Source: an uncultured Pseudomonadota bacterium (lineage in GTDB: Bacteria > Pseudomonadota > Gammaproteobacteria > Methylococcales > Methylomonadaceae). From it: DNA of 41,404 bases. The translations under genes were made by a program, and so were the position numbers. Location of the stretch: positions 1 to 41,404 of the forward strand of contig CAINHO010000012.1 of NCBI GenBank assembly GCA_903848935.1. Reading direction: 5' to 3'. Below, piece after piece: positions 4,331 to 41,404 of this stretch; within the stretch, counting starts at the first letter, position 1; each line of letters begins with the position of its first letter. A model generated the notes under the pieces. That model worked only from the letters and a program-made list of their open reading frames with translations, had not been told where the DNA came from and ran no database searches.

Positions 4331-5251
4331 TCAACCAGCGTCTTCAACTTCGGGAGATAACGGTTCGTCAATCACGGTTTCGTGCATATAAACGCCACGA
4401 TTTGCGGTCAACATTTCTAAAATACTAGCGAGTTTTGCACGAATATCACGACGATGAATAATCATGTCGATGGCACCGTGTTCTTGTAAAAATTCGCTAC
4501 GTTGGAAACCTTCGGGCAATTTTTCACGCACAGTTTGTTCAATCACGCGAGGCCCTGCAAAACCGATTAACGCATTTGGTTCGGCAACGTTAATGTCGCC
4601 CAACATCGCCAAACTTGCCGATACACCGCCCATTGTTGGGTCGGTCATAAACGAAATATACGGAATGCCACGCTCTGACAATTTGGTTAAAGCCGCACTG
4701 GTTTTCGCCATTTGGAACAACGAAAACAATGATTCTTGCATTCTCGCGCCACCACTGGCAGTGAAAACGATAAACGGTACACCGAGTTCTAAACTTTTAT
4801 TTACGCCGCGCACGAATTTTTCGCCTACAACTGAACCCATTGAACCGCCCATGAAATTGAAATCAAACGCAGCCGCAACGATTTCTTGCCCTTGTAATTC
4901 GCCTTTCATAACGATTAAAGCGTCATTTTCTTTGGTTTGTTTTTGGGCTTGCGTGATACGGTCTTTGTATTTTTTGCTGTCTTTGAATTTCAACGGATCG
5001 ACAGGCTTGACGTTTTTGCCAATTTCTTCGCGTCCATTTTCATCTAAAAATAGGTTTAAACGCATTCGTGCCGAAATTCGCATGTGATGGTCACATTTTG
5101 GACAAACGCTGCCGTTTTTTTCGAGTTCGCTGTTGTACAAAATCGCGTTACAGCTCGGACATTTTGCCCACAATCCTTCGGGAACAGTCGTTTTTTTGCC
5201 CGAGGATTCGGTTCTGATAATCGACGGACGTAATTTTTCAAACCAACTCAT
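4331..5251 (-). CDS. accD: Acetyl-CoA carboxylase carboxyltransferase beta subunit
   Basis: AccD pairs with AccA to transfer the carboxyl group from carboxybiotin to acetyl-CoA, giving malonyl-CoA for fatty-acid synthesis. The 306-residue protein has the expected N-terminal zinc ribbon with Cys31, Cys34, Cys50 and Cys53, then a crotonase-like carboxyltransferase core with the conserved SGGARMQE and [10 protein letters not shown] stretches. Length equals that of the E. coli subunit (about 304). It starts two bases after trpA and ends just before folC, the common trpA-accD-folC order. Confidence 0.97.
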
Positions 5252-12720: not shown

Positions 12721-15534
12721 ATGGAAAACTTCATCGCAGGTCAACGCTGGATTAGTAACACCGAATCTGAATTAGGTTTGGGGCTGATTCTCGAAATGAG
12801 CTTTAATCGAGTCAGCGTTTTGTTTTTAGCGTGCGACGAAAAACGGATTTATGCCGTGGATAACGCGCCTTTAACCCGCGTAAGATTCGCCACTGGCGAC
12901 CACATTGAATCCGTTGATGACGAAAAATTGATCGTTTTGAAAGTGATCGAAACCGAAGGTATTTTGACTTATGTTTGCGAAAATGAAGACGGCGAAACGG
13001 TCGAACTTGAAGAAATGGATTTAAACCATCACAGCCAATTCAACAAACCGCAAGAGCGTTTATTTACCGGACAAACCGATCCGAATGCGTGGTTTTCGTT
13101 GCGTTATGAAACGTGGCAACGTTTGCAACAACACGCGCAATCGCCTGTCAAAGGTTTGCTCGGTGGACGCGCCGCGTTAATTCCCCATCAGATTTTTATT
13201 GCTCACGAAGCCGCGAATCGTGCTGCGCCACGGATTATGTTGGCGGACGAAGTTGGTTTAGGCAAAACGATTGAAGCCGGTTTGATTTTGCATCACCGGT
13301 TGATTAACGGGTTGAGTAAACGTATTTTGATTATCGTGCCAGAAAGTTTGTTGCATCAATGGCTGGTGGAAATGTTGCGCCGTTTCAACGTGAAATTCAG
13401 TATCTTTGACGAAATGCGTTGTTTGAGTGAAATCGGCGATGATGGTTTTGAAGATGAAGAAGCTGATTTGTACAATCAAGCGAATCCGTTTTTGTCTGAA
13501 CAATTGATTTTGTGCAGCCAATCGTTCTTTTCAAATTATCCCGCCCGCCAAGAACAAGCCTTGGACGCGGGTTGGGATATGGTGATTATTGATGAAGCGC
13601 ATCATTTGGAATGGTCGGAAACTGCGCCCAGCGCAGATTATTTATTTGTCGAACAACTCGCCCAAATTTCACCGAGCCTGATTTTGCTCACTGCCACGCC
13701 TGAACAACTCGGCAAAGAAAGTCATTTTGCGCGTTTACGTTTATTAGATCCCGGCCGTTTTTACAGTTTCGCGGCATTTTTGGAAGAAGAAAAATCGTTT
13801 GAACCGGTGGCGAATGCGGCGAAATCGTTGCTTGCTGATAAGCCTTTAACTGCCGATGAACAACAAGCCTTAGCGGTTTTATTAAAAGACGACAATGTTT
13901 CTAAAACATTAGAAAATTTGAACGATGCTGAAAAATCAGTGGCGGCGCGTCAAACGTTAATTAACATTTTGCTCGACCACCACGGCACCGGACGGATTTT
14001 GTTCCGTAATTCACGCCAAACGGTACAAGGTTTCCCCGAACGCGAATACTTTGGTTATGCGTTGAATGGCGACATTAACGAAACGGACTTACAACATGAC
14101 GCGCGTTATTTGTGGCTGGTTGAAAAAGTGAAACAACTTGCAGGCAAAAAAGCGTTGTTGATTTGCAAACACGCGCAAACCGCAATGGATTTAGAAGAAA
14201 CCTTAAAAATGCGGGCAGGCATTGCGTCAGCTGTTTTTCATGAACACATGACGATTATCGAACGTGACCGCGCAGCCGCTTATTTTGCTGACGAAGAAAG
14301 TAGCGCACGGCTGTTAATTTGCTCTGAAATCGGCAGCGAAGGACGCAATTTTCAATTCTTGCAGCATTTGATTTTGTGGGACTTGCCGACGAATCCTGAT
14401 TTATTGCAACAACGTATCGGGCGTTTAGACCGTATCGGGCAAAAACACGTTATTCAAATTCACGTCCCGTATTTAGAAAACACCGAGCAAGCGATTTTAT
14501 ATCGTTGGTACGACGAAGGTTTGAATGCGTTTCGGGCGAATAATTCCGCCGCGCAACAAGTCGCCGATACGTTGCACGAAGAATTACAGTCGCTTTTGAT
14601 AAACAACGATGCAGAAAAAATCAGTGCATTTATCGAAAAAACTCGCGCTTTAAGTCAGGAAGTTGAAGCTGAATTAAATCACGGACGCGACCAACTTTTA
14701 GAGCTGAATTCGTGTCGCAAAGAAATCGCCGATGAGTTCATTGCCGAATTATCCGACTACGAAAATGAAGGTACGCTGTGGGATTACATGGAATCGATGT
14801 TTGATTGTTACGGTGTCGATACCGAAGAACATTCTGCCGATGCGTTTATTTTGATGCCAAGCGAACATTTGCGTTGTGAATCGTTCCCACATTTAACCGA
14901 AGACGGTTTGACAGTGACTGTTCGACGCGCTCAAGCCTTGGCACGAGAAGAATTGCAATTTTTGACGTGGGAACATCCGCTGGTGACGGCTTCGATGGAT
15001 ATGGTTTTGTCGAGTGAAACCGGCAACGCCACGTTAAGTACCGTGAAACATCCTGATTTAAAAGCCGGACAATTTTTCTTAGAATGTTTGTTTATTGTCG
15101 AACACAGTGCGCCGTCGGAATTACAAATCAGCCGATTTTTGCCACACACGCCAATTCGTGTGTTAATCAACCAATTGCAAAAAGACGTGACCGCTGATTT
15201 TTCGCACGACAGTTTGATCGACAGCGGTGTGAATTTTGATAAGCACGCGATTACGGCGTTTTTAAATAAACAACGGACATTGATTTTGAAATTGTTGGCG
15301 TTTGCTGAACAACAAGCGCAACTTCAAAAAGAAGCAATTTGTGAACACGCGACCGTGACCATGTTGGAATCGTTGACCACCGAAATTAAACGTTTAGTGC
15401 GTTTGCAAAAAGTGAATCTCAGCATCAAAAGCGACGAAATCGAAGATTTAAAAGACAAAACGCTTTTGATTCACGAAAATATCCAAATTGCACAATTACG
15501 TTTGGATGCGGTGCGGTTTGTAATTACGCGCTAA
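12721..15534 (+). CDS. rapA: RNA polymerase-associated ATPase RapA (HepA)
   Basis: RapA is a Swi2/Snf2-type ATPase that binds core RNA polymerase and promotes its recycling. The 937-residue protein aligns throughout with E. coli RapA (968). The N-terminal GQRWISNTESELGLG starts the tandem Tudor-like region; Walker A DEVGLGKT is at residues 176-183; DEAH is at 291-294; LTATPEQLG follows; and the helicase C-terminal half carries ICSEIGSEGRNFQF and RIGRLDRIGQ. Start and end agree with the family. A hicAB pair follows with a one-base gap, which is unusual. Confidence 0.97.
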   Translation: MENFIAGQRWISNTESELGLGLILEMSFNRVSVLFLACDEKRIYAVDNAPLTRVRFATGDHIESVDDEKLIVLKVIETEGILTYVCENEDGETVELEEMDLNHHSQFNKPQERLFTGQTDPNAWFSLRYETWQRLQQHAQSPVKGLLGGRAALIPHQIFIAHEAANRAAPRIMLADEVGLGKTIEAGLILHHRLINGLSKRILIIVPESLLHQWLVEMLRRFNVKFSIFDEMRCLSEIGDDGFEDEEADLYNQANPFLSEQLILCSQSFFSNYPARQEQALDAGWDMVIIDEAHHLEWSETAPSADYLFVEQLAQISPSLILLTATPEQLGKESHFARLRLLDPGRFYSFAAFLEEEKSFEPVANAAKSLLADKPLTADEQQALAVLLKDDNVSKTLENLNDAEKSVAARQTLINILLDHHGTGRILFRNSRQTVQGFPEREYFGYALNGDINETDLQHDARYLWLVEKVKQLAGKKALLICKHAQTAMDLEETLKMRAGIASAVFHEHMTIIERDRAAAYFADEESSARLLICSEIGSEGRNFQFLQHLILWDLPTNPDLLQQRIGRLDRIGQKHVIQIHVPYLENTEQAILYRWYDEGLNAFRANNSAAQQVADTLHEELQSLLINNDAEKISAFIEKTRALSQEVEAELNHGRDQLLELNSCRKEIADEFIAELSDYENEGTLWDYMESMFDCYGVDTEEHSADAFILMPSEHLRCESFPHLTEDGLTVTVRRAQALAREELQFLTWEHPLVTASMDMVLSSETGNATLSTVKHPDLKAGQFFLECLFIVEHSAPSELQISRFLPHTPIRVLINQLQKDVTADFSHDSLIDSGVNFDKHAITAFLNKQRTLILKLLAFAEQQAQLQKEAICEHATVTMLESLTTEIKRLVRLQKVNLSIKSDEIEDLKDKTLLIHENIQIAQLRLDAVRFVITR

Positions 15535-34505: not shown

Positions 34506-35893
34506 GATTTTTTCTGCAAAGTAGTTCCGGCGGGTTTAAACGTATGCACATCGACTTCCGATTCTGCCGAATCCACCGCGCAACCCCAATCCAATGATTG
34601 GTCTTGATTAAATCGTTTGCCTAATTTTTGTGCAATTTCGGCGCGTGCCAATTCCACACCCAAATAAAACGCATGACCACCATCGTTTTCAATGCCTAAT
34701 TTCGGGAATAATTCAAACGGATCGGTTGCGCTGTGAAACCCGTCACGGTTAAAAATATGCACGCCGTTTTCACTAATTTGAATGCGATAACTGGGGTCTT
34801 TAATTTGTGCCGCGAGTTCTTGAATTTCATCTAACGAATACGGAAATGATGCTGGTTCGTGCAATGCCATCAAACCTGAATTGATATGTTTTGGCAATGT
34901 ATCGTGTTCTTTCGCAGCAAACATAATTCGACGCGCCAAATCAGCTTCTTTAATAGCACGAGCCGCATGGTTGCTGACTTCGGTCGCTAAAATATGATTG
35001 ATATTTAATTCTGAACAAATCCCCATCAATAACGCATTCATGCCAGCCGTGTCAGCGTGCGTCAATTCGGTGATATTGCCCACACCGAGCATTATTTCTA
35101 CGTCGGGGTGATTTTTTCGGACTTCGTGATAACGCACAATCGACGCAGTAAAACCAAAATGAATCGGGTCTAAAATCGGATCGACAATAAATGGACGATT
35201 TTTTGCCTGCATTTTTGCAATCGCACGGTCGAGCGATTCTAAATCGGTATGCGTTTCGGGAATAATAATCGGCGTTGCGTTCACTTCGTCCGCAATCCAC
35301 AACGTAGACTCGTGCAAACTCAATAAATAATCCACACCTGCTTTTCCGCCACGCAATAAATCCGCTGTTTCGAGTGAATCCAAACTCACCAAAAATCCCG
35401 CTTGTTTTAATGCTGCAATCGCGTCTTCCATGTGCGGAAATTCGGTACTTGGCAAACATCCTAAATCAATCACGTCCGCACCATTTTTTCGGTAATACTT
35501 GGCGCGATTCAAAATTTCAGGCACTGTTAAATTGGGTGCGTCAGTGATTTCAGCAAAAATTTTCACGCTGTAACGATTTAAATCCGCAATTTGAATTTTC
35601 TTGCCAAAAAACAGCGGTAAATCTTTGACTTCCTCTGTGCCGCGTTCGACGGGAATCCCTAATTTTTCAGAAAGCACGACTAAATCCCCACGACATCGAC
35701 CTGGAACAATGATTTTCGTTGCACCAAACGTATCCGTGAGCCGCCGTTCAATCATGTCTGCCGTCATTAACGCCGCAACTTTCAAACCTAATTGATGCAC
35801 GGTGTAAGTAAATTCGGGCTGCATTTTTTCTAAAATGCTCCGCAATTGTTTTTCGGCGAGTGAACCCGTTAAAAATAAAATATGTTCACTCAT
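34502..35893 (-). CDS. Dihydropteroate synthase-related protein of methanopterin synthesis
   Basis: A 463-residue protein. The N-terminal 150 residues (HILFLTGSLAEKQLRSIL onward) are the extra domain of the archaeal/methylotroph DHPS-like family; the middle (NGADVIDLGCLPSTEFP, VSLDSLETADL, PFIVDPILDP) is the pterin-binding TIM barrel. The likely role is joining the pterin to the ribofuranosyl-aminobenzene unit in place of normal dihydropteroate synthase; this is inferred from fold and context. The C-terminus has a conserved FYLGVELARAEIAQKLGK stretch. Four-base overlaps join it to both neighbours. It is too long and divergent to be the folate-pathway FolP. Confidence 0.85.
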   Translation of the reverse strand: MSEHILFLTGSLAEKQLRSILEKMQPEFTYTVHQLGLKVAALMTADMIERRLTDTFGATKIIVPGRCRGDLVVLSEKLGIPVERGTEEVKDLPLFFGKKIQIADLNRYSVKIFAEITDAPNLTVPEILNRAKYYRKNGADVIDLGCLPSTEFPHMEDAIAALKQAGFLVSLDSLETADLLRGGKAGVDYLLSLHESTLWIADEVNATPIIIPETHTDLESLDRAIAKMQAKNRPFIVDPILDPIHFGFTASIVRYHEVRKNHPDVEIMLGVGNITELTHADTAGMNALLMGICSELNINHILATEVSNHAARAIKEADLARRIMFAAKEHDTLPKHINSGLMALHEPASFPYSLDEIQELAAQIKDPSYRIQISENGVHIFNRDGFHSATDPFELFPKLGIENDGGHAFYLGVELARAEIAQKLGKRFNQDQSLDWGCAVDSAESEVDVHTFKPAGTTLQKKS

Positions 35894-36453
35894 GACAAAT
35901 TTCTTAAGCGTTCTTGAACCGTTGAAATCAGCGCAGCAACGTTTTCAACGACCGTGGTATATTCAAATTCGCGCAATTTTGCCGTGCCGTCTAAATCGAT
36001 TTTGCGCGGATAAACCATGACTTTTCCGCTCGGTGCAGTAGTTTCCATTTCGGGCGCAATGTCACATGGGTAAACAATACTCGGCACGCGGCATTTTCCC
36101 GCTTGGGAATAAAGATTTGTGACCAGTGAATCGGCAATGCCTAGCACGCATTTTGAAATTGTGTTTGAAGTGGCAGGCGCAAGCACAAATGTGTGGTAAT
36201 AACCTTTGTAGAAATGTCCGACGGGCGGACAGGAAGCGGTTTTATCACGATAAACGGGCATTTTTTCGCGTAAATCGCTAAGTGAAATACCGTACATTTT
36301 CAAAACTTCTTCGCCTGCTTGACTGACGTATAAATCCACATTTTCAAGCGTGAGCAAGAATTCAACGCATTCTTCAATGTAATGTCCTGAGCCGGTGATT
36401 GCCCATGCTAATCGGGGTTTTGTCATTTTAGTTTTCAATTCCTGAATTTTCAT
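35890..36453 (-). CDS. dmrB: DmrB-like flavoprotein (dihydromethanopterin reductase)
   Basis: A flavodoxin-like protein of the AfpA/DmrB family that reduces dihydromethanopterin to tetrahydromethanopterin with FMN. It starts PRLAWAITGSGHYIEECVEF and has the LAPATSNTISKCVLGIAD and VYPCDIAPEM segments of the family. The start is uncertain: I use the ATG at 36453 (187 residues); a GTG at 36477 and an ATG at 36426 (closer to the conserved start, with AGGA 13 bases upstream) are alternatives. It is the first gene of the four-gene cofactor operon. Its promoter must lie in 36454-36540 but no clear hexamers were seen. Confidence 0.78.
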   Translation of the reverse strand: MKIQELKTKMTKPRLAWAITGSGHYIEECVEFLLTLENVDLYVSQAGEEVLKMYGISLSDLREKMPVYRDKTASCPPVGHFYKGYYHTFVLAPATSNTISKCVLGIADSLVTNLYSQAGKCRVPSIVYPCDIAPEMETTAPSGKVMVYPRKIDLDGTAKLREFEYTTVVENVAALISTVQERLRNLS

Positions 36454-36540
36454 TGGCGCGTCATCGTTTGCATCCACAAATCTAAATAATTTTGCTGGTT
36501 ACCAACGAAATGTTGGCGAATTCTACCACACACCTACAAC

Positions 36541-36574
36541 AAAAAAGCCCTGTACTCAAACAGGATAGGCTTTC
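36541..36574. terminator. Terminator-like hairpin at the left edge of the replicon array
   Basis: CCTGT and ACAGG form an inner stem and AAAGC/GGCTTT an outer one separated by a small bulge, preceded by an A-run. It marks the left boundary of the first replication module and is repeated with small changes at 39549-39582. Confidence 0.55.
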
Positions 36575-36707
36575 AAGTTTTACAACGACAGCGTGAAAAA
36601 CGCTTATTTTTGTTAAAAATTTAAAAATTTTGTTTTATGAAATTTTTTAATCTTGTTTTAGCTTGTTTTATACTTGTTTTAGGAGGCGAATTCGATATAT
36701 TTTTCAA
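36570..36707 (+). repeat. Replication-module leader, copy 1
   Basis: A 138-base block beginning CTTTCAAGTTTTACAAC that recurs before all three rep genes. It contains a perfect AGCGT/ACGCT hairpin (36590-36604), very AT-rich DNA, three 9-mers CTTGTTTTA at 36652, 36662 and 36673, and ends with TTCGATATATTTTTCAA. AT-rich tandem 9-mers next to iterons are typical of the DNA-unwinding part of iteron-type origins. Confidence 0.75.
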
Positions 36708-36722
36708 TATGTTGAAAGAGCA

Positions 36723-36861
36723 TAAGACGACATATTCTTTTTATAAGACGACGAATTCTTTGCATAAGACGACAAAATTTTTGTATTAAACGACAAATTC
36801 TTTGCTCAATCGGCATTTATAAGACGACAAATTCTTTGTATTAGACGACCTTAATTTTTTG
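36723..36861 (+). repeat. Iteron array 1 of rep copy 1 (candidate origin)
   Basis: Six direct repeats with consensus TAAGACGACAAATTCTTTG start at 36723, 36744, 36765, 36787, 36820 and 36841. Spacings are 21, 21, 22, 33 and 21 bases, so all copies stay on one face of the helix (two or three turns apart). The core GACGAC is not found in the other two arrays. Array plus AT-rich leader plus rep gene is the standard layout of an iteron-controlled origin. Confidence 0.82.
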
Positions 36862-36911
36862 CGTCGCTTTTTATGTTACACTGCCCAAAATATCATTATT
36901 CAGGTGGGTTT

Positions 36912-37775
36912 ATGGAGCATAAAAATTTAACTGTTTGCAAAGCAAATAATGTCATTGAAGCGGGTTATAAACTCAGTTTGAATGAACAGCGCGTTATTTT
37001 GGCTTGTATTGGTCAGGTCAATTCAATGGAAGAATTGTTGAAAACTGATGAGTTTGAGTTGTCGGCTAAAAATTTCGCCAAATTATTCTCGGTTTCTGAT
37101 GAAAATGCTTATCAGGCATTAACTGAGGTCACTGAAAGTTTATTCAATCGTTATGTGGTGGTCGAAAATCCTTATCCTAATCGTCCGCGTGTTAAGCGTT
37201 TAAAAATGCGTTGGATTAGTTCCATTAAGTATTTACCCGACGAAGGAAAGACGATTCTGTGTTTTTCTCAAGATATGTTGCCTTATTTGAGCGAACTAAA
37301 AGGCAGTTTCACCCGATACAAATTGGAACACGTCGGTAAAATGACCTGTATTTATGCGATTCGATTGTATGAATTACTGATGCAATGGAAAAGCACAGGC
37401 AAAAGAGAAATTGACATTGATTGGTTAAAAAAACAATTTCAACTCGATGAAAATTATGATCGTATGTTTGATTTTAAAAAACGTGTTCTTGATCCCGCCA
37501 TCGACGACATCAATAAAAATTCAAACTACAACGTGTCTTGGACACAGCGAAAAACGGGGCGACGGGTCACACATTTAACGTTTGAATTCAGCGAAAAACT
37601 ACCGCCCGTTCCTGAAAAACCCAAAAAGAAAACAACGGTTAAAGCAAAACCCGAAGCCGCGAAAACCGATAGCATTGAACAGTTTGCCGAAATGCGTAAA
37701 CGATTCGGCGATACCGTGGCAGATATTATGCCGCTAGAAATTATCGAAATTCTCAAATCACAAGGACGTTGGTGA
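36912..37775 (+). CDS. Rep_3-family replication initiator, copy 1
   Basis: A 287-residue initiator of the plasmid Rep_3 (RepB/RepA) family. The N-terminal signature KANNVIEAGYKLSLNEQRVILACI opens the first winged helix; the second winged helix has the recognition helix DFKKRVLDPAIDDIN at 187-201. A Lys/Pro-rich linker (PEKPKKKTTVKAKPEAAK) and a conserved tail ending SQGRW follow. I start at ATG 36912 (AGGTGG five bases upstream), which gives the same length and N-terminus as the other copies; an in-frame ATG at 36873 lies 13 codons earlier. It should bind the six TAAGACGAC iterons upstream. Codons 204-287 are nearly identical in DNA to copies 2 and 3. Confidence 0.92.
   Translation: MEHKNLTVCKANNVIEAGYKLSLNEQRVILACIGQVNSMEELLKTDEFELSAKNFAKLFSVSDENAYQALTEVTESLFNRYVVVENPYPNRPRVKRLKMRWISSIKYLPDEGKTILCFSQDMLPYLSELKGSFTRYKLEHVGKMTCIYAIRLYELLMQWKSTGKREIDIDWLKKQFQLDENYDRMFDFKKRVLDPAIDDINKNSNYNVSWTQRKTGRRVTHLTFEFSEKLPPVPEKPKKKTTVKAKPEAAKTDSIEQFAEMRKRFGDTVADIMPLEIIEILKSQGRW
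37521..37775 (+). repeat. Homogenised 3' tract of rep, copy 1
   Basis: The last 255 bases of the gene differ from copy 3 at six positions by my direct comparison, four of them silent or conservative, whereas the upstream two thirds differ extensively including at silent sites. Confidence 0.85.
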
Positions 37776-37818
37776 AATCTACACAACAACAAAAAACCAC
37801 CACTTCATAGCGGCAGGG

Positions 37819-37935
37819 CTTTCAAGTTTTACAACTACAGCGTGAAAAACGCTTATTTTCGTTAAAAATTTAAAAATTTTGTTTTATGAAATTTTTTAAT
37901 CTTGTTTTAGGATGCAAATTCGATATATTTTTCAA
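37819..37935 (+). repeat. Replication-module leader, copy 2 (21-bp deletion)
   Basis: Same block as copy 1 but 117 bases long: only one CTTGTTTTA 9-mer (37901) remains, so 21 bases carrying two 9-mers are missing. Its left end is fused to a degenerate form of the terminator that follows the other rep genes (37788-37820), where the GCCC arm has become ACC and no longer pairs well. Confidence 0.75.
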
Positions 37936-37950
37936 CCGGTTACAATGGCA

Positions 37951-38034
37951 TTAAACGAGAAATCAGTTGTTTAAAGGGAGAAATCGGTTGCTTAAGACGA
38001 GAAAACGGTTGTTTATGAGACGAGGAATTGGTTG
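37951..38034 (+). repeat. Iteron array 2 of rep copy 2 (candidate origin)
   Basis: Four imperfect direct repeats with core GAGAAATCGGTTG have their cores at 37957, 37978, 37999 and 38022, spaced 21, 21 and 23 bases. The sequence differs from arrays 1 and 3. The copies are less regular than those of the other arrays, which, with the truncated leader, suggests this origin may be decaying. Confidence 0.72.
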
Positions 38035-38035
38035 A

Positions 38036-38069
38036 TTTAAACGCGTTTAAAAATTAAACTCGTTTAATT
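38036..38069. promoter_or_regulatory. Two palindromes before rep copy 2, probable Rep operator
   Basis: TTTAAACGCGTTTAAA (38036-38051) is a perfect 16-base palindrome. AATTAAAC-TC-GTTTAATT (38052-38069) is a second with 8-base arms. The half-sites TTAAACG resemble the left part of iteron 1 (TTAAACGAG). In Rep_3 plasmids, Rep dimers repress their own gene through an inverted repeat that shares sequence with the iterons, so this is the expected operator, 21-54 bases before the start codon. Confidence 0.62.
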
Positions 38070-38089
38070 GTATTTGTCAGGGGTATTTT

Positions 38090-38953
38090 ATGAGCAGTAA
38101 AAATTTAGTCGTTTATAAATCAAATAAAGTGATTGAAGCGGGTTACAAACTTAATCTCAACGAACAGCGGCTTATTTTGGCTTGTATTTCTAAAGTCAAT
38201 TCATCCAAGCCTTTATTGGCAACTGAGCGTTTTGAAGTGACGGCAAAAGAATTTTCCACGTTGTTCGGGATTAGCCAAGATAAAACCTATCAAACACTAA
38301 AAGAGGTTGCTGAACAGCTTTTTGAACGGTATGTGATTATTGATAATCCCGACCCCGACACACCCACGTTGAAATATACCAAAACCCGTTGGATTAGTTC
38401 GATTGATTATCTGCCAGAATTAGGCAAAATTTCATTGTACTTTGCCCAGCGTATGTTGCCTTATTTAAGTGAGTTAAAAGGTCAATTCACGTTTTATCGT
38501 CTTGAAAACATTAGTGAAATGAATTCAATTTATGCAATTCGCTTATATGAATTGTTAATGCAATGGAAAACCACGGGCAAGCGTGAAGTTGAAATTGACT
38601 GGTTAAAAGAACAATTTGAACTGGATGAAAGTTATGACCGAATGTTTGATTTAAAAAAATATGTCATCGACCCCGCCATCAACGACATCAACACCCATTC
38701 AAACTACAACGTGTCTTGGACGCAGCGAAAAACAGGGCGACGGGTCACACATTTAACGTTTGAATTCAGCGAAAAACTCCCGCCCGTTCCTGAAAAACCC
38801 AAAAAGAAAACAACGGTTAAAGCAAAACCCGAAGCCGCGAAAACCGATAGCCTTGAGCAGTTTGCCGAAATGCGTAAACGATTCGGCGATACCGTGGCAG
38901 ATATTATGCCGCTAGAAATCATCGAAATTCTCAAATCACAAGGACGTTGGTGA
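38090..38953 (+). CDS. Rep_3-family replication initiator, copy 2
   Basis: A 287-residue homologue of copy 1 and the most divergent of the three in the N-terminal domain (YKSNKVIEAGYKLNLNEQRLILACIS; LLATERFEVTAKEFSTLFGI). The recognition helix reads DLKKYVIDPAINDIN. From residue 204 the protein equals the other copies except for one or two residues. AGGGG precedes the ATG. Two palindromes and a degenerate four-copy iteron array lie upstream. No frameshift or stop interrupts it, so it is probably functional as a protein even if its origin is damaged. Confidence 0.91.
   Translation: MSSKNLVVYKSNKVIEAGYKLNLNEQRLILACISKVNSSKPLLATERFEVTAKEFSTLFGISQDKTYQTLKEVAEQLFERYVIIDNPDPDTPTLKYTKTRWISSIDYLPELGKISLYFAQRMLPYLSELKGQFTFYRLENISEMNSIYAIRLYELLMQWKTTGKREVEIDWLKEQFELDESYDRMFDLKKYVIDPAINDINTHSNYNVSWTQRKTGRRVTHLTFEFSEKLPPVPEKPKKKTTVKAKPEAAKTDSLEQFAEMRKRFGDTVADIMPLEIIEILKSQGRW
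38699..38953 (+). repeat. Homogenised 3' tract of rep, copy 2
   Basis: A 255-base tract that differs from copy 3 at six positions by eye; it begins directly after the recognition helix codons. Confidence 0.85.
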
Positions 38954-38965
38954 AATCGACACAAC

Positions 38966-39005
38966 AAAAAAGCCCCACCACTTCACAGCGGCAGGGCTTT
39001 TTTTT
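38966..39005. terminator. Bidirectional terminator after rep copy 2
   Basis: AAAAAAGCCC (38966-38975) and GGGCTTTTTT (38994-39003) pair perfectly over ten bases with an 18-base loop, with A-run and T-run on either side. It serves rep copy 2 and the convergent coiled-coil gene. Confidence 0.85.
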
Positions 39006-39016
39006 CACAAATACAA

Positions 39017-39502
39017 TCAATGCGGTAAATGCGTTAAAAACCATTCGAGTAATCGAATGCTCATAATTATCGAACCAATTGCACCAATAATCCAAAGCGT
39101 TTGCTTGTGAACCGTTTGTGCAAAATTCGTTTCCATTTGCTTCATTTCAACACGAATTTTCTCAATTTCAAGCCGCGTTCCCTCAATTTCCTTTTGTAAA
39201 TTCGCTTCAACGGTCTTGATTTCAAGCTGCAAATTCGCTTCAACCGTCCTGATTTCCAATTTCGTGGCTTGAATCTCCTTTTGCAAATTCGCTTCAACAG
39301 TCTTGATTTCTAATTTTGTTGCTTGAATTTCCTTTTGCAAACGCAATTCCGTTTCACTCAAATCACGCTTTGTTGCCGTCTCTTTCAAATCAGGATAACG
39401 TTCTTCTAATTCACTGAACGCTTCAACAATCGCTTTTGAACGCGCTTTATCGTCATGGGCATCATTTAATTTTTCGTACAAATGCAACGCGACAACACTC
39501 AT
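39017..39502 (-). CDS. Coiled-coil protein with C-terminal membrane segment (DUF1640-like)
   Basis: A 161-residue protein. After a helical head (residues 1-45) comes a long coiled coil made of near-identical units (LQKEIQATKLEIKTVEAN), then one C-terminal membrane helix (LWIIGAIGSIIMSIRLLEWF). In DNA the unit TTCGCTTCAAC recurs at 39201, 39234 and 39288, i.e. steps of 33 and 54 bases or 11 and 18 residues, so heptads and hendecads are mixed and copies probably expand by slippage. It resembles small DUF1640/CCDC90-type proteins; function unknown. It lies between replication modules 2 and 3 on the opposite strand, which could mean it travelled with the array. Confidence 0.72.
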   Translation of the reverse strand: MSVVALHLYEKLNDAHDDKARSKAIVEAFSELEERYPDLKETATKRDLSETELRLQKEIQATKLEIKTVEANLQKEIQATKLEIRTVEANLQLEIKTVEANLQKEIEGTRLEIEKIRVEMKQMETNFAQTVHKQTLWIIGAIGSIIMSIRLLEWFLTHLPH

Positions 39503-39548
39503 AGTTTTTCTCAGTTAGTTTTTTAAAGTTGCCCAAATCATATCACAA

Positions 39549-39582
39549 CAAAAAAGCCCCATCCTCAAACAGGACAGGCTTT
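39549..39582. terminator. Terminator-like hairpin before leader copy 3
   Basis: AAAGCC pairs with GGCTTT and an inner CCT with AGG, preceded by an A-run. Sequence and position match the hairpin at 36541-36574, so it is part of the repeated module. Confidence 0.55.
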
Positions 39583-39716
39583 CAAGTTTTACAACCACAG
39601 CGTGAAAACCGCTTATTTTCGTTAAAAATTTAAAGTTTTCGTTTTAAGAGATTTTTTAATCTTGTTTTACCTTGTTTTATACTTGTTTTAGGAGGCAAAT
39701 TCGATATATTTTTCAA
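39579..39716 (+). repeat. Replication-module leader, copy 3
   Basis: A 138-base copy of the leader, same length as copy 1, with three CTTGTTTTA 9-mers at 39661, 39671 and 39682 in the same spacing (10 and 11 bases). With copy 2 it also shares the next bases, GGTTACAATGGCATTAAAC, up to its first iteron. Confidence 0.78.
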
Positions 39717-39736
39717 CGGGTTACAATGGCATTAAA

Positions 39737-39847
39737 CTACAAAATCGGTGCTTATACCTACAAAATCGGTGGATTAAGCTACAAAATCGGTGCTTATACC
39801 TACAAAATCGGTGCTAAAACGGCGTTTATAAACCTACAAAATCGGTG
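39737..39847 (+). repeat. Iteron array 3 of rep copy 3 (candidate origin)
   Basis: Five exact copies of CTACAAAATCGGTG start at 39737, 39758, 39779, 39800 and 39834, spaced 21, 21, 21 and 34 bases; the intervening seven bases are partly conserved (CTTATAC). This is the most regular of the three arrays, and with the intact leader suggests the youngest or best maintained origin. Confidence 0.85.
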
Positions 39848-39867
39848 CTTTAAACTTCATATTTTAT

Positions 39868-39898
39868 TTAAGTAGGATAATCATGTTAGACTACAAAT
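39868..39898. promoter_or_regulatory. Possible operator before rep copy 3
   Basis: GTAG (39872) and CTAC (39891), within TTTAAGTAG and CTACAAAT, form an imperfect inverted repeat that reuses the start of the array 3 iteron (CTACAAA). It lies 60-90 bases before the rep start, where autorepression sites of Rep_3 plasmids are found. Confidence 0.4.
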
Positions 39899-39959
39899 AA
39901 GATGTATATAGTTTAATAGCGACATATCTCACAAAAATAACTAATGCGAAGGTAATTAT

Positions 39960-40823
39960 ATGAATCAAAAAAATTTAACTGTTTGTAAAGCAAACAAAGT
40001 TATTGAAGCCGGCTATAAGCTCAGTTTAAATGAACAGCGCGTTGTTTTAGCCTGTATCGGGCAAGTTAACTCAATGGAAGAATTACTCAAAACCGATGAG
40101 TTTGAATTATCCGCCAAAGATTTTGCCGCGTTGTATGGCGTTTCAGAAGATAGGGCTTATGGAGAATTACAGGAAGTTGCAAAGAATTTATATCAAAGGT
40201 CATTAACCATTTACAATCCAGACCCGAAGCGACCCAAAATTAAAAAATTGGAAACACGCTGGATTAGTTCAATTGGTTATATGCCTGAAGATGGCAAAAT
40301 TACGTTGTGTTTTGCTCAAAAATTATTGCCTTACTTGAGTGAATTAAAAGGCAGTTTTACCCGTTATAAATTAGAACACGTTGGCAAAATGACCTGTGTT
40401 TATGCGATTCGGTTGTATGAGTTACTGATGCAATGGCAAAATACTGGCAAAAGAGAAGTGGAACTAGACTGGTTAAAAAAACAACTGCAACTTGATGACA
40501 GCTACGAACGAATGGATAATTTTAAAGCCCGTGTTATCGACCCTGCCATCAACGACATCAACACAAATTCAAACTACAACGTGTCTTGGACACAGCGAAA
40601 AACGGGGCGACGGGTCACACATTTAACGTTTGAATTCAGCGAAAAACTACCGCCCGTTCCTGAAAAACCCAAAAAGAAAACAACGGTGAAAGCAAAACCC
40701 GAAACCGCGAAAACCGATAGCCTTGAGCAGTTTGCTGAAATGCGTAAACGATTCGGCGATACCGTGGCAGATATTATGCCGCTAGAAATCATCGAAATTC
40801 TCAAATCACAAGGACGTTGGTGA
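39960..40823 (+). CDS. Rep_3-family replication initiator, copy 3
   Basis: A 287-residue initiator whose N-terminal 50 residues are close to copy 1 in protein (KNLTVCKANKVIEAGYKLSLNEQRVVLACIG; MEELLKTDEFELSAKDF) but differ at many silent sites. Residues 60-95 and the recognition helix (NFKARVIDPAINDIN) are its own. From residue 204 it matches the other copies. GAAGG lies before the ATG. It is preceded by five regular CTACAAAATCGGTG iterons and followed by a strong terminator. The intact frame and origin make it the best candidate for an active initiator. Confidence 0.92.
   Translation: MNQKNLTVCKANKVIEAGYKLSLNEQRVVLACIGQVNSMEELLKTDEFELSAKDFAALYGVSEDRAYGELQEVAKNLYQRSLTIYNPDPKRPKIKKLETRWISSIGYMPEDGKITLCFAQKLLPYLSELKGSFTRYKLEHVGKMTCVYAIRLYELLMQWQNTGKREVELDWLKKQLQLDDSYERMDNFKARVIDPAINDINTNSNYNVSWTQRKTGRRVTHLTFEFSEKLPPVPEKPKKKTTVKAKPETAKTDSLEQFAEMRKRFGDTVADIMPLEIIEILKSQGRW
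40569..40823 (+). repeat. Homogenised 3' tract of rep, copy 3
   Basis: A 255-base tract that differs from copies 1 and 2 at about six positions each; the adjoining terminator is also shared with copy 2. Confidence 0.85.
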
Positions 40824-40836
40824 AATCTACACAACA

Positions 40837-40872
40837 AAAAAGCCCCACCACTTCACAGCGGCAGGGCTTTTT
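40837..40872. terminator. Terminator after rep copy 3
   Basis: AAAAAGCCC (40837-40845) and GGGCTTTTT (40864-40872) pair over nine bases around the same loop as after copy 2. It is the right edge of the array and can also serve the convergent adhesin-like gene. Confidence 0.82.
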
Positions 40873-40923
40873 CATTTCAAGCAAAGCAGATTAAAACATC
40901 ATCTGCTTTTACTAGACCAACAA

Positions 40924-41404
40924 TTACGCCAATGTGAAATCCAATGTTGCCGTGTTACCAGCAAGGTCAGTCGCACCCGTTAAAATGATATGGTCAGTTG
41001 CAGCGACGGTAGTTCCGGAATCAGCAGTGAAAGTAGCACTTAATCCATTACCAGCAAGTGTTAATGTTCCTGGTGTTCCACTCGTAGCAAGAATATGAAC
41101 ATGGTTAGAACTAGAACCAGCATCATTAACCGTTACAGTACCCACTGAACTTAATGCTTCACTAAATGCCAACGTGATAATGTCAGTCGCAGCGAAATGT
41201 GTTGAAGCGTTATTATCACCTGCACTGGCATCAGAGTAAGTCACAGGCGTTGCCGCTGCCGCAGGTGCAGTTGTATCAACCGTAATTGCGTTAGTTGAAG
41301 CGGCTGACAAGTTACCTGCCGCATCCACTGTGTACACTTTGTAAGTACCATCAACCAAACCTGTTGCGGCAAGATTGGTGTTGGTATTTGCCGTAGTGAT
41401 AGTC
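40924..41404 (-). CDS. C-terminal part of an Ig-like-repeat surface protein (partial)
   Basis: The minus-strand frame is open from the window edge to a stop at 40924, giving 159 residues. It shows bacterial Ig-like repeat features: GTYKVYTVDAAGNLS, a DTTAP junction between domains, SEALSSVGTVTVNDAGSS, and a closing TDLAGNTATLDFTLA. Such repeats occur in large adhesins and calcium-binding exoproteins of type I secretion. The composition is rich in Thr, Ala and Asp with no Cys. The stop comes directly after an Ig-like domain, without an obvious LPXTG or autotransporter end. The true start lies outside the window. Confidence 0.8.
   Translation of the reverse strand, partial: TITTANTNTNLAATGLVDGTYKVYTVDAAGNLSAASTNAITVDTTAPAAAATPVTYSDASAGDNNASTHFAATDIITLAFSEALSSVGTVTVNDAGSSSNHVHILATSGTPGTLTLAGNGLSATFTADSGTTVAATDHIILTGATDLAGNTATLDFTLA

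Follow-up and report, generated by a model that had tools for sequence, protein, structure and literature searches.

Three tandem Rep_3-type iteron replication units on a chromosomal contig of a Methylococcales genome bin and a candidate two-residue code for iteron recognition

Why should three plasmid-type replication initiator genes stand in a row beside core chromosomal genes? The question is raised by the 41,404-bp stretch of DNA analysed here (the window), which is a whole contig of a 2.395-Mb, 51-contig Methylococcales genome bin and carries the initiator genes rep1, rep2 and rep3 in tandem, all on the plus strand. Our answer, which we hold with some reserve, is that the locus probably consists of three complete, mutually orthogonal plasmid iteron replication units of the Rep_3 type that were captured in the chromosome and persist there as latent, compatible replicons. 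On our best reading, the units are neither decayed remains nor copies of one origin. The clustering of the genes is not a matter of chance, because the bin contains three matches to PF01051 and all of them sit in this array.

The sequence-only reading had described three 287-codon Rep_3 genes of one orientation within about 4.3 kb, each with a leader and iterons and two with a strong terminator, and our analysis confirmed this description. All three Reps exceed the Pfam cut-offs for Rep3_N and Rep3_C and contain both winged-helix domains, WH1 and WH2 (PF01051, PF21205). The length of 287 codons applies to rep1 if it begins at the ATG that aligns with the starts of the other two genes; its longest frame starts at 36873 and has 300 codons. 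Upstream of each gene we found an AT-rich leader with CTTGTTTTA repeats, followed by iterons of period 21 in five, four and five copies, respectively, and a presumed operator, an inverted repeat seemingly sharing an iteron half, that as judged by eye is legible before rep1 and rep2 and degenerate before rep3. The parts of the three modules are as follows (positions in the window; z, fold z-score).

36540-36573, no strand: weak hairpin (z -1.7) in the left junction of module 1; further members of its terminator family occur elsewhere in the genome
36574-36715, plus: module 1 leader, AT-rich, with the CTTGTTTTA repeats; presumed DNA unwinding element
36726-36838, plus: module 1 iterons, five, core GACGACAAATTCTTTG, 0-2 mismatches each
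36844-36870, no strand: presumed operator upstream of rep1, recognised by eye as an inverted repeat of the left iteron half
36912-37775, plus: rep1, Rep_3 initiator, WH2 code residues D187/R191
37790-37822, no strand: hybrid, weakened terminator, a rep 3′ hairpin joined at GGCTTT to the next leader (z -0.7)
37823-37950, plus: module 2 leader; over 94 bp it shares 98% identity with the leader of module 1
37954-38034, plus: module 2 iterons, four, core GACGAGAAATCGGTTG, 1-3 mismatches each
38039-38068, no strand: presumed operator upstream of rep2, recognised by eye as an inverted repeat
38090-38953, plus: rep2, Rep_3 initiator, D187/Y191
38966-39003, plus: strong intrinsic terminator after rep2 (z -5.7)
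39550-39583, no strand: hairpin of terminator type in the left junction of module 3 (read by eye)
39584-39730, plus: module 3 leader; over 165 bp it shares 92% identity with module 1
39737-39847, plus: module 3 iterons, five, core CTACAAAATCGGTG, exact in five of five
39852-39875, no strand: operator-like repeat upstream of rep3, degenerate (judged by eye)
39960-40823, plus: rep3, Rep_3 initiator, N187/R191
40836-40872, plus: strong intrinsic terminator after rep3 (z -4.8)

In their architecture these modules resemble the Rep_3 iteron replicons exemplified by RepE of F, RepA of pPS10 and pi of R6K, with two winged-helix domains, upstream iterons, an AT-rich leader and a presumed operator-like inverted repeat; in profile searches the window Reps matched chains of RepE and pi whose structures are known. 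Unlike those replicons, the window contains three tandem units of putative autonomy on a chromosomal contig with no partition genes in view.

Each module carries its own iteron type. The cores are GACGAC followed by ATTCTTTG for rep1, GACGAG followed by ATCGGTTG for rep2 and CCTACA followed by ATCGGTG for rep3, and over the 16-bp core the mismatches number 0-3 within a module versus 4-7 for the best match in another module. A genome-wide search, which covered the rep1 and rep3 types, found arrays of these iterons only at this locus. A regulon of distant iterons was rejected in the same search, with six stray matches for the rep1 type and one for the rep3 type versus five and one for the reversed-pattern control. 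Some arrays, among them L049, L036 and 36726-36838 in the window, have degenerate copies or two mixed right-half types, as is the case in both module 1 and its sister module, a hint of ongoing iteron exchange.

In comparisons across relatives, the left half of the iteron varies with WH2 and its right half with WH1. For 22 of 26 hand-read Reps (three from plasmid pINp10 and the near-duplicate L032 were dropped), WH1 similarity correlated with right-half similarity when WH2 was held constant (0.361, reached in 0 of 5000 permutations) versus -0.05 for the left half, and WH2 similarity correlated with left-half similarity (0.404, permutation fraction 0.0006) versus 0.004 for the right half. A unit of the sister genome G001 (L033) has the same arrangement in a single protein: its WH1 is Rep1-like (85% identity), its WH2 is Rep3-like (90%), and its iteron combines the rep1 right half with the rep3 left half.

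Within WH2, two residues seem to specify two bases of the half-site triplet. At residue 187, D goes with G and N with T as the first base; at residue 191, R goes with C and W or Y with G as the third. The rule was framed from the 26 hand-read Reps, before most further loci had been viewed, and was scored on an author-chosen set (the window, L005, L016, L017, L026, L027, L031-L034, L036-L050 and L157-L227, with 12 duplicate loci excluded). This set yielded 108 rep frames, 95 of them full-length in 84 loci; helix and iterons were called in 79, of which 62 have D or N together with R, W or Y, and 58 of these have a called triplet (not L049, L218, L214 and L226). The two residues predict the left-half triplet in 58 of the 58 scorable Reps, under a scoring register pattern that was fixed after the loci had been viewed and that itself restricts the first scored base to G or T and the second to C or G. 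Among 20,000 label shuffles the mean was 21 matches and the maximum 36. Thirty-five of the 58 lie beyond the hand-read set, one of them (L177) with upstream DNA that had been displayed before the rule was noted. L018, a locus outside the set that was viewed afterwards, agrees as well (W191, GAG), and 17 Reps with other residues or a misplaced helix (L027, L043) are left uncovered by the code.

Since many of the scored Reps are close relatives, a test on the tree outweighs this count. On a quickly built tree with the helix residues masked and pairs counted on supported branches, residue 191 shows 11 residue-class changes and 11 base changes, and eight of eight supported independent pairs agree (sign test 0.0078). 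Residue 187 and its base each change six times, with agreement in four of four pairs, too few for a test. Some natural Reps that differ at residue 191 are otherwise close, such as L198 and L199 at 94% identity. The window brings together three different code words in one molecule, D187/R191, D187/Y191 and N187/R191, and because of this its Reps should not cross-react. A tandem of two code words also occurs outside methanotrophs, on a Larsenimonas rhizosphaerae contig (L181), where Rep_3 genes at 2809 and 3967, 1,158 bp apart, have W191 with GAG iterons and R191 with GAC iterons.

In a profile alignment the RepE residues matching 187 and 191 are D203 and R207, which, to judge by this alignment, may take part in contacts with DNA. 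Geminivirus Rep offers a parallel in that its residues predict iterons; that protein is unrelated to Rep_3 and serves rolling-circle replication. In ColE2-type plasmids specificity parts are exchanged in mosaic fashion between Rep and origin, with a Rep family and an origin that differ from those of Rep_3 units. The review PMC4980987 describes contacts of the WH2 of pi with GAG and of the WH2 of RepE with three nucleotides per strand. No such rule for Rep_3 was found in literature titles and abstract openings, which is weak evidence of novelty since most subscription journals lay outside the coverage.

Likeness among the three units is distributed unevenly along their length. The Reps are 74-80% identical in pairwise protein comparisons, and the leaders are 92-98% identical over matched stretches. 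Synonymous divergence (dS) is 0.07-0.09 from codon 204 to the end (the last ~84 codons) versus 1.6-2.1, near saturation, over codons 1-203; sharing or conversion of the ends is therefore recent, while the DNA-reading parts are old. At the junction between modules 1 and 2 a rep-type hairpin is fused at GGCTTT with the following leader. Modules 1 and 3 have, at their left junctions, hairpins of a terminator family present elsewhere in the genome. These features indicate recombination at terminators. We infer that units of differing specificity would have been united by homologous recombination in the shared segment of 3′ end, terminator and leader, having met either on a plasmid or one by one in the chromosome, and that the terminator repeats of this genome would have served as the entry point.

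The same kind of repeat borders other genes of this genome. At contig C5, 5100-6640 (L089), and contig C17, 1800-4010 (L090), short genes stand in tandem, cassette-like (coiled-coil and, by eye, toxin-like small proteins), separated by near-identical terminator-plus-promoter repeats and without an integron integrase. An integron gene-cassette array was rejected: the genome has no TIGR02249 match above the cut-off, and weaker matches occur as in 14 of 14 control genomes.

Related units are found at chromosomal sites in other genomes. Rep_3 genes are present in 15 of the 61 genomes searched, the window's own counted. In G001 the solitary unit L033 lies between gnd and zwf (identified with Pfam); among the zwf loci of 16 same-genus genomes (again including the window's own), only G001 has a rep there, in a gap of 1,341 bp; in seven, gnd and zwf are direct neighbours with 37-99 bp and no rep between them, and in eight no gnd lies beside zwf within the locus. 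The second G001 unit, L032, encodes a protein 93% identical to Rep1 and sits on a 50-kb contig between a terminator and sigma-factor genes, next to what by eye is a relic module with a leader, one iteron and an operator and no rep. No clean empty counterpart of the L032 site was found; genome G009 has just the left gene and the terminator in common. In G025, a genome of another genus, a 2.97-Mb contig carries two reps near pyruvate dehydrogenase genes, the first intact and the second split by a transposase gene of the IS110 type. Chromosomal capture of such units has thus taken place more than once, because kin sit at gnd-rep-zwf in G001 and on the 2.97-Mb contig of G025. The tandem reps of G025 (L031), of which the second is the interrupted one, adjoin genes for a cytosine DNA methylase and an LlaMI-type restriction enzyme (Pfam).

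The comparison of module 1 with its G001 sister L032 is informative about constraint. Over codons 1-203, dS is 0.39 and nonsynonymous divergence (dN) 0.012, a ratio of 0.03; for chromosomal genes of the same genome pair, dS is 0.47 (flavoprotein) and 1.10 (zwf). The leaders are 86% identical over 36599-36715. The iterons are 92.4% identical and the operator-to-ATG stretch (36836-36911) 94.7%, two blocks that overlap by 25 bp, versus ~70% at synonymous sites. Because iterons and operator exceed synonymous-site conservation and dN/dS is 0.03, origin and initiator appear to have been maintained as a functional pair for a long period, whether on a chromosome or on a plasmid.

This constraint bears on the possibility that an integrated multireplicon plasmid is decaying here and no longer has a function. 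The sequence-only reading had named the remains of such a plasmid among its options; its two others, a reserve of alternative origins and a chromosomal incompatibility locus, are conjectural. The integrated multireplicon part of the first option fits our data: plasmid-type units with kin at chromosomal loci of two other genomes stand beside chromosomal genes, and multi-initiator plasmids are known from the same taxonomic order (pINp10 of Methyloprofundus) and from Acinetobacter, for which PMC7315799 describes bi- and trireplicons of different groups. The word "remains" fits less well. The broken terminator after rep1, the degenerate operator before rep3, the degenerate iterons of modules 1 and 2, the relic beside L032 and the transposase-interrupted copy in G025 are what decay would leave, but the window retains three unbroken frames with their full iteron sets and leaders, and conservation of the rep1 iterons and operator exceeds that of synonymous sites. 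We regard such functionless decay as unlikely.

Multireplicon plasmids, including F-like plasmids with FIA, FIB and FII, resemble the locus in having several initiators of different groups per molecule; they differ in being plasmids, whereas the window has three close paralogues with homogenised 3′ ends on a chromosomal contig. Two or more full reps on one strand occur in eight of the 84 loci examined, the window counted and also L034, which is probably a plasmid read twice. pINp10 itself (AP023241.1, L227) is a plasmid of 42 kb, annotated with five initiator genes that differ in iteron type. It also has an open Rep_3 frame at 14833 that the plasmid collection's gene table does not include; since one locus tag is absent from the table, the original record may contain this gene. 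L034, a 29.7-kb contig (C21 of G004), has two identical rep genes 14,551 bp apart, and in an ungapped comparison its first 5 kb agree with the sequence one period further along at 4,675 of 5,000 positions; identical reps one period apart point to a circular plasmid of 14.5 kb that the assembly contains twice.

The setting of the array in its contig has been secured on one side. Three further genes are relevant here.

35890-36477, minus: flavoprotein gene of a cofactor cluster (PF02441), the left neighbour, chromosomal and divergent from the array
39017-39502, minus: coiled-coil protein gene between modules 2 and 3, with a weak KID-repeat match only
40924-41404, minus: 3′ end of a repeat-rich protein gene without a Pfam match, the right neighbour, cut by the contig end

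The flanking DNA had been described as chromosomal in appearance, and the 36 kb on the left bear this out: the 25 proteins scanned there all have core or ordinary chromosomal functions, among them tryptophan enzymes, acetyl-CoA carboxylase carboxyl-transferase, a Mur-ligase family protein, RapA, UbiD, parts of an RND efflux system, leucyl/phenylalanyl-tRNA protein transferase and cofactor genes. No plasmid or mobile genes were met among these 25 (smaller frames lay outside the scan), and across the 30 window proteins scanned the contig carries core genes and no plasmid genes beside the Reps, unlike an extrachromosomal molecule with maintenance genes. To the right, no core genes are seen before the contig ends, 0.5 kb past the array; because it terminates inside the repeat-rich protein gene, whose best other match within the bin is a frame of 3036 amino acids, that side of the array is unanchored. 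The flavoprotein has a strong match in 16 of 17 same-genus relatives, and no rep was found beside it in 18 relatives (2.4-4.1 kb of upstream flank read in each). A conserved insertion site was rejected, with a rep in none of these 18 flanks and a gene order too variable for an empty site to be recognised. No RNA family scored above its gathering score in 36000-41404.

A further reading is an assembly or binning artefact, in which the end of a multireplicon plasmid was wrongly joined to a chromosomal contig. The array stands at a contig end, its junctions lie within repeated terminator sequence and it contains exact repeats of up to 123 bp. We nevertheless think such a join quite improbable, since like units lie within chromosomal gene order at two sites in G001 and on the 2.97-Mb contig of G025, and the terminator repeats are only ~40 bp long.

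More far-reaching, and also quite improbable, is a domesticated plasmid-exclusion array, a chromosomal incompatibility locus whose Rep-bound iterons would act by handcuffing or titration on any incoming plasmid with a matching code word. Its cassettes, each with a different two-domain code word, would be gained and swapped by recombination at the shared rep 3′ ends and terminators and would provide the host with a blocking repertoire. The units are intact and apparently constrained, and the rep3-type core has exact copies in L164 and L031 of related bacteria. In E. coli, according to PMC11983097, control iterons of the FIB replicon alone displace FIB plasmids; that effect comes from iterons downstream of rep, whereas origin iterons alone were inactive and the target could benefit from Rep. 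All iterons of the window units are of the upstream, origin type, and the window Reps have no PADLOC match. If this reading were true, plasmid incompatibility could be read from sequence alone.

That at least one unit starts replication here as an active extra origin is very improbable: all origin parts are present, with five exact iterons in module 3, but the genome has a normal dnaA gene elsewhere, the 41-kb GC-skew profile shows no lasting switch at the array (a weak test), and the leaders have no DnaA box, as is true of most other Reps.

Several observations weigh against captured, latent replicons as well. No partition or mobilisation genes were met among the 30 window proteins scanned, with the limit on frame size given above. 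The array lies 0.5 kb from a contig end and is anchored on the left only, in a 51-contig bin; its exact repeats mean that order and copy number could be a choice of the assembly. The rep3 operator looks degenerate and the module 1 and 2 iterons carry 0-3 mismatches, although those of L032 are similar. A TTWTNCACA DnaA box is found within 500 bp upstream of none of the six chromosomal modules, though just 10 of 70 other Reps have one; because of this low proportion the box does not define the family in this set, and its loss was uninformative as a silencing mark. Finally, the constraint seen between rep1 and L032 may stem from time spent on plasmids.

With these points in the balance, we still favour three captured, compatible replicons. 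Most likely, each Rep would bind only its own iterons and its own operator, holding itself at a low level, and DnaA would be left to start chromosome replication; the Reps are thus probably self-repressed. What is novel here is the chromosomal tandem, the combination of homogenised ends with diversified specificity, and the code. If the code is true, compatibility groups of a very large plasmid family would become predictable and directly testable. If the units are chromosomal and working, three orthogonal plasmid initiators would coexist in one chromosome without taking over its replication, and the locus would provide a natural system for asking how iteron origins are silenced or turned against plasmids.

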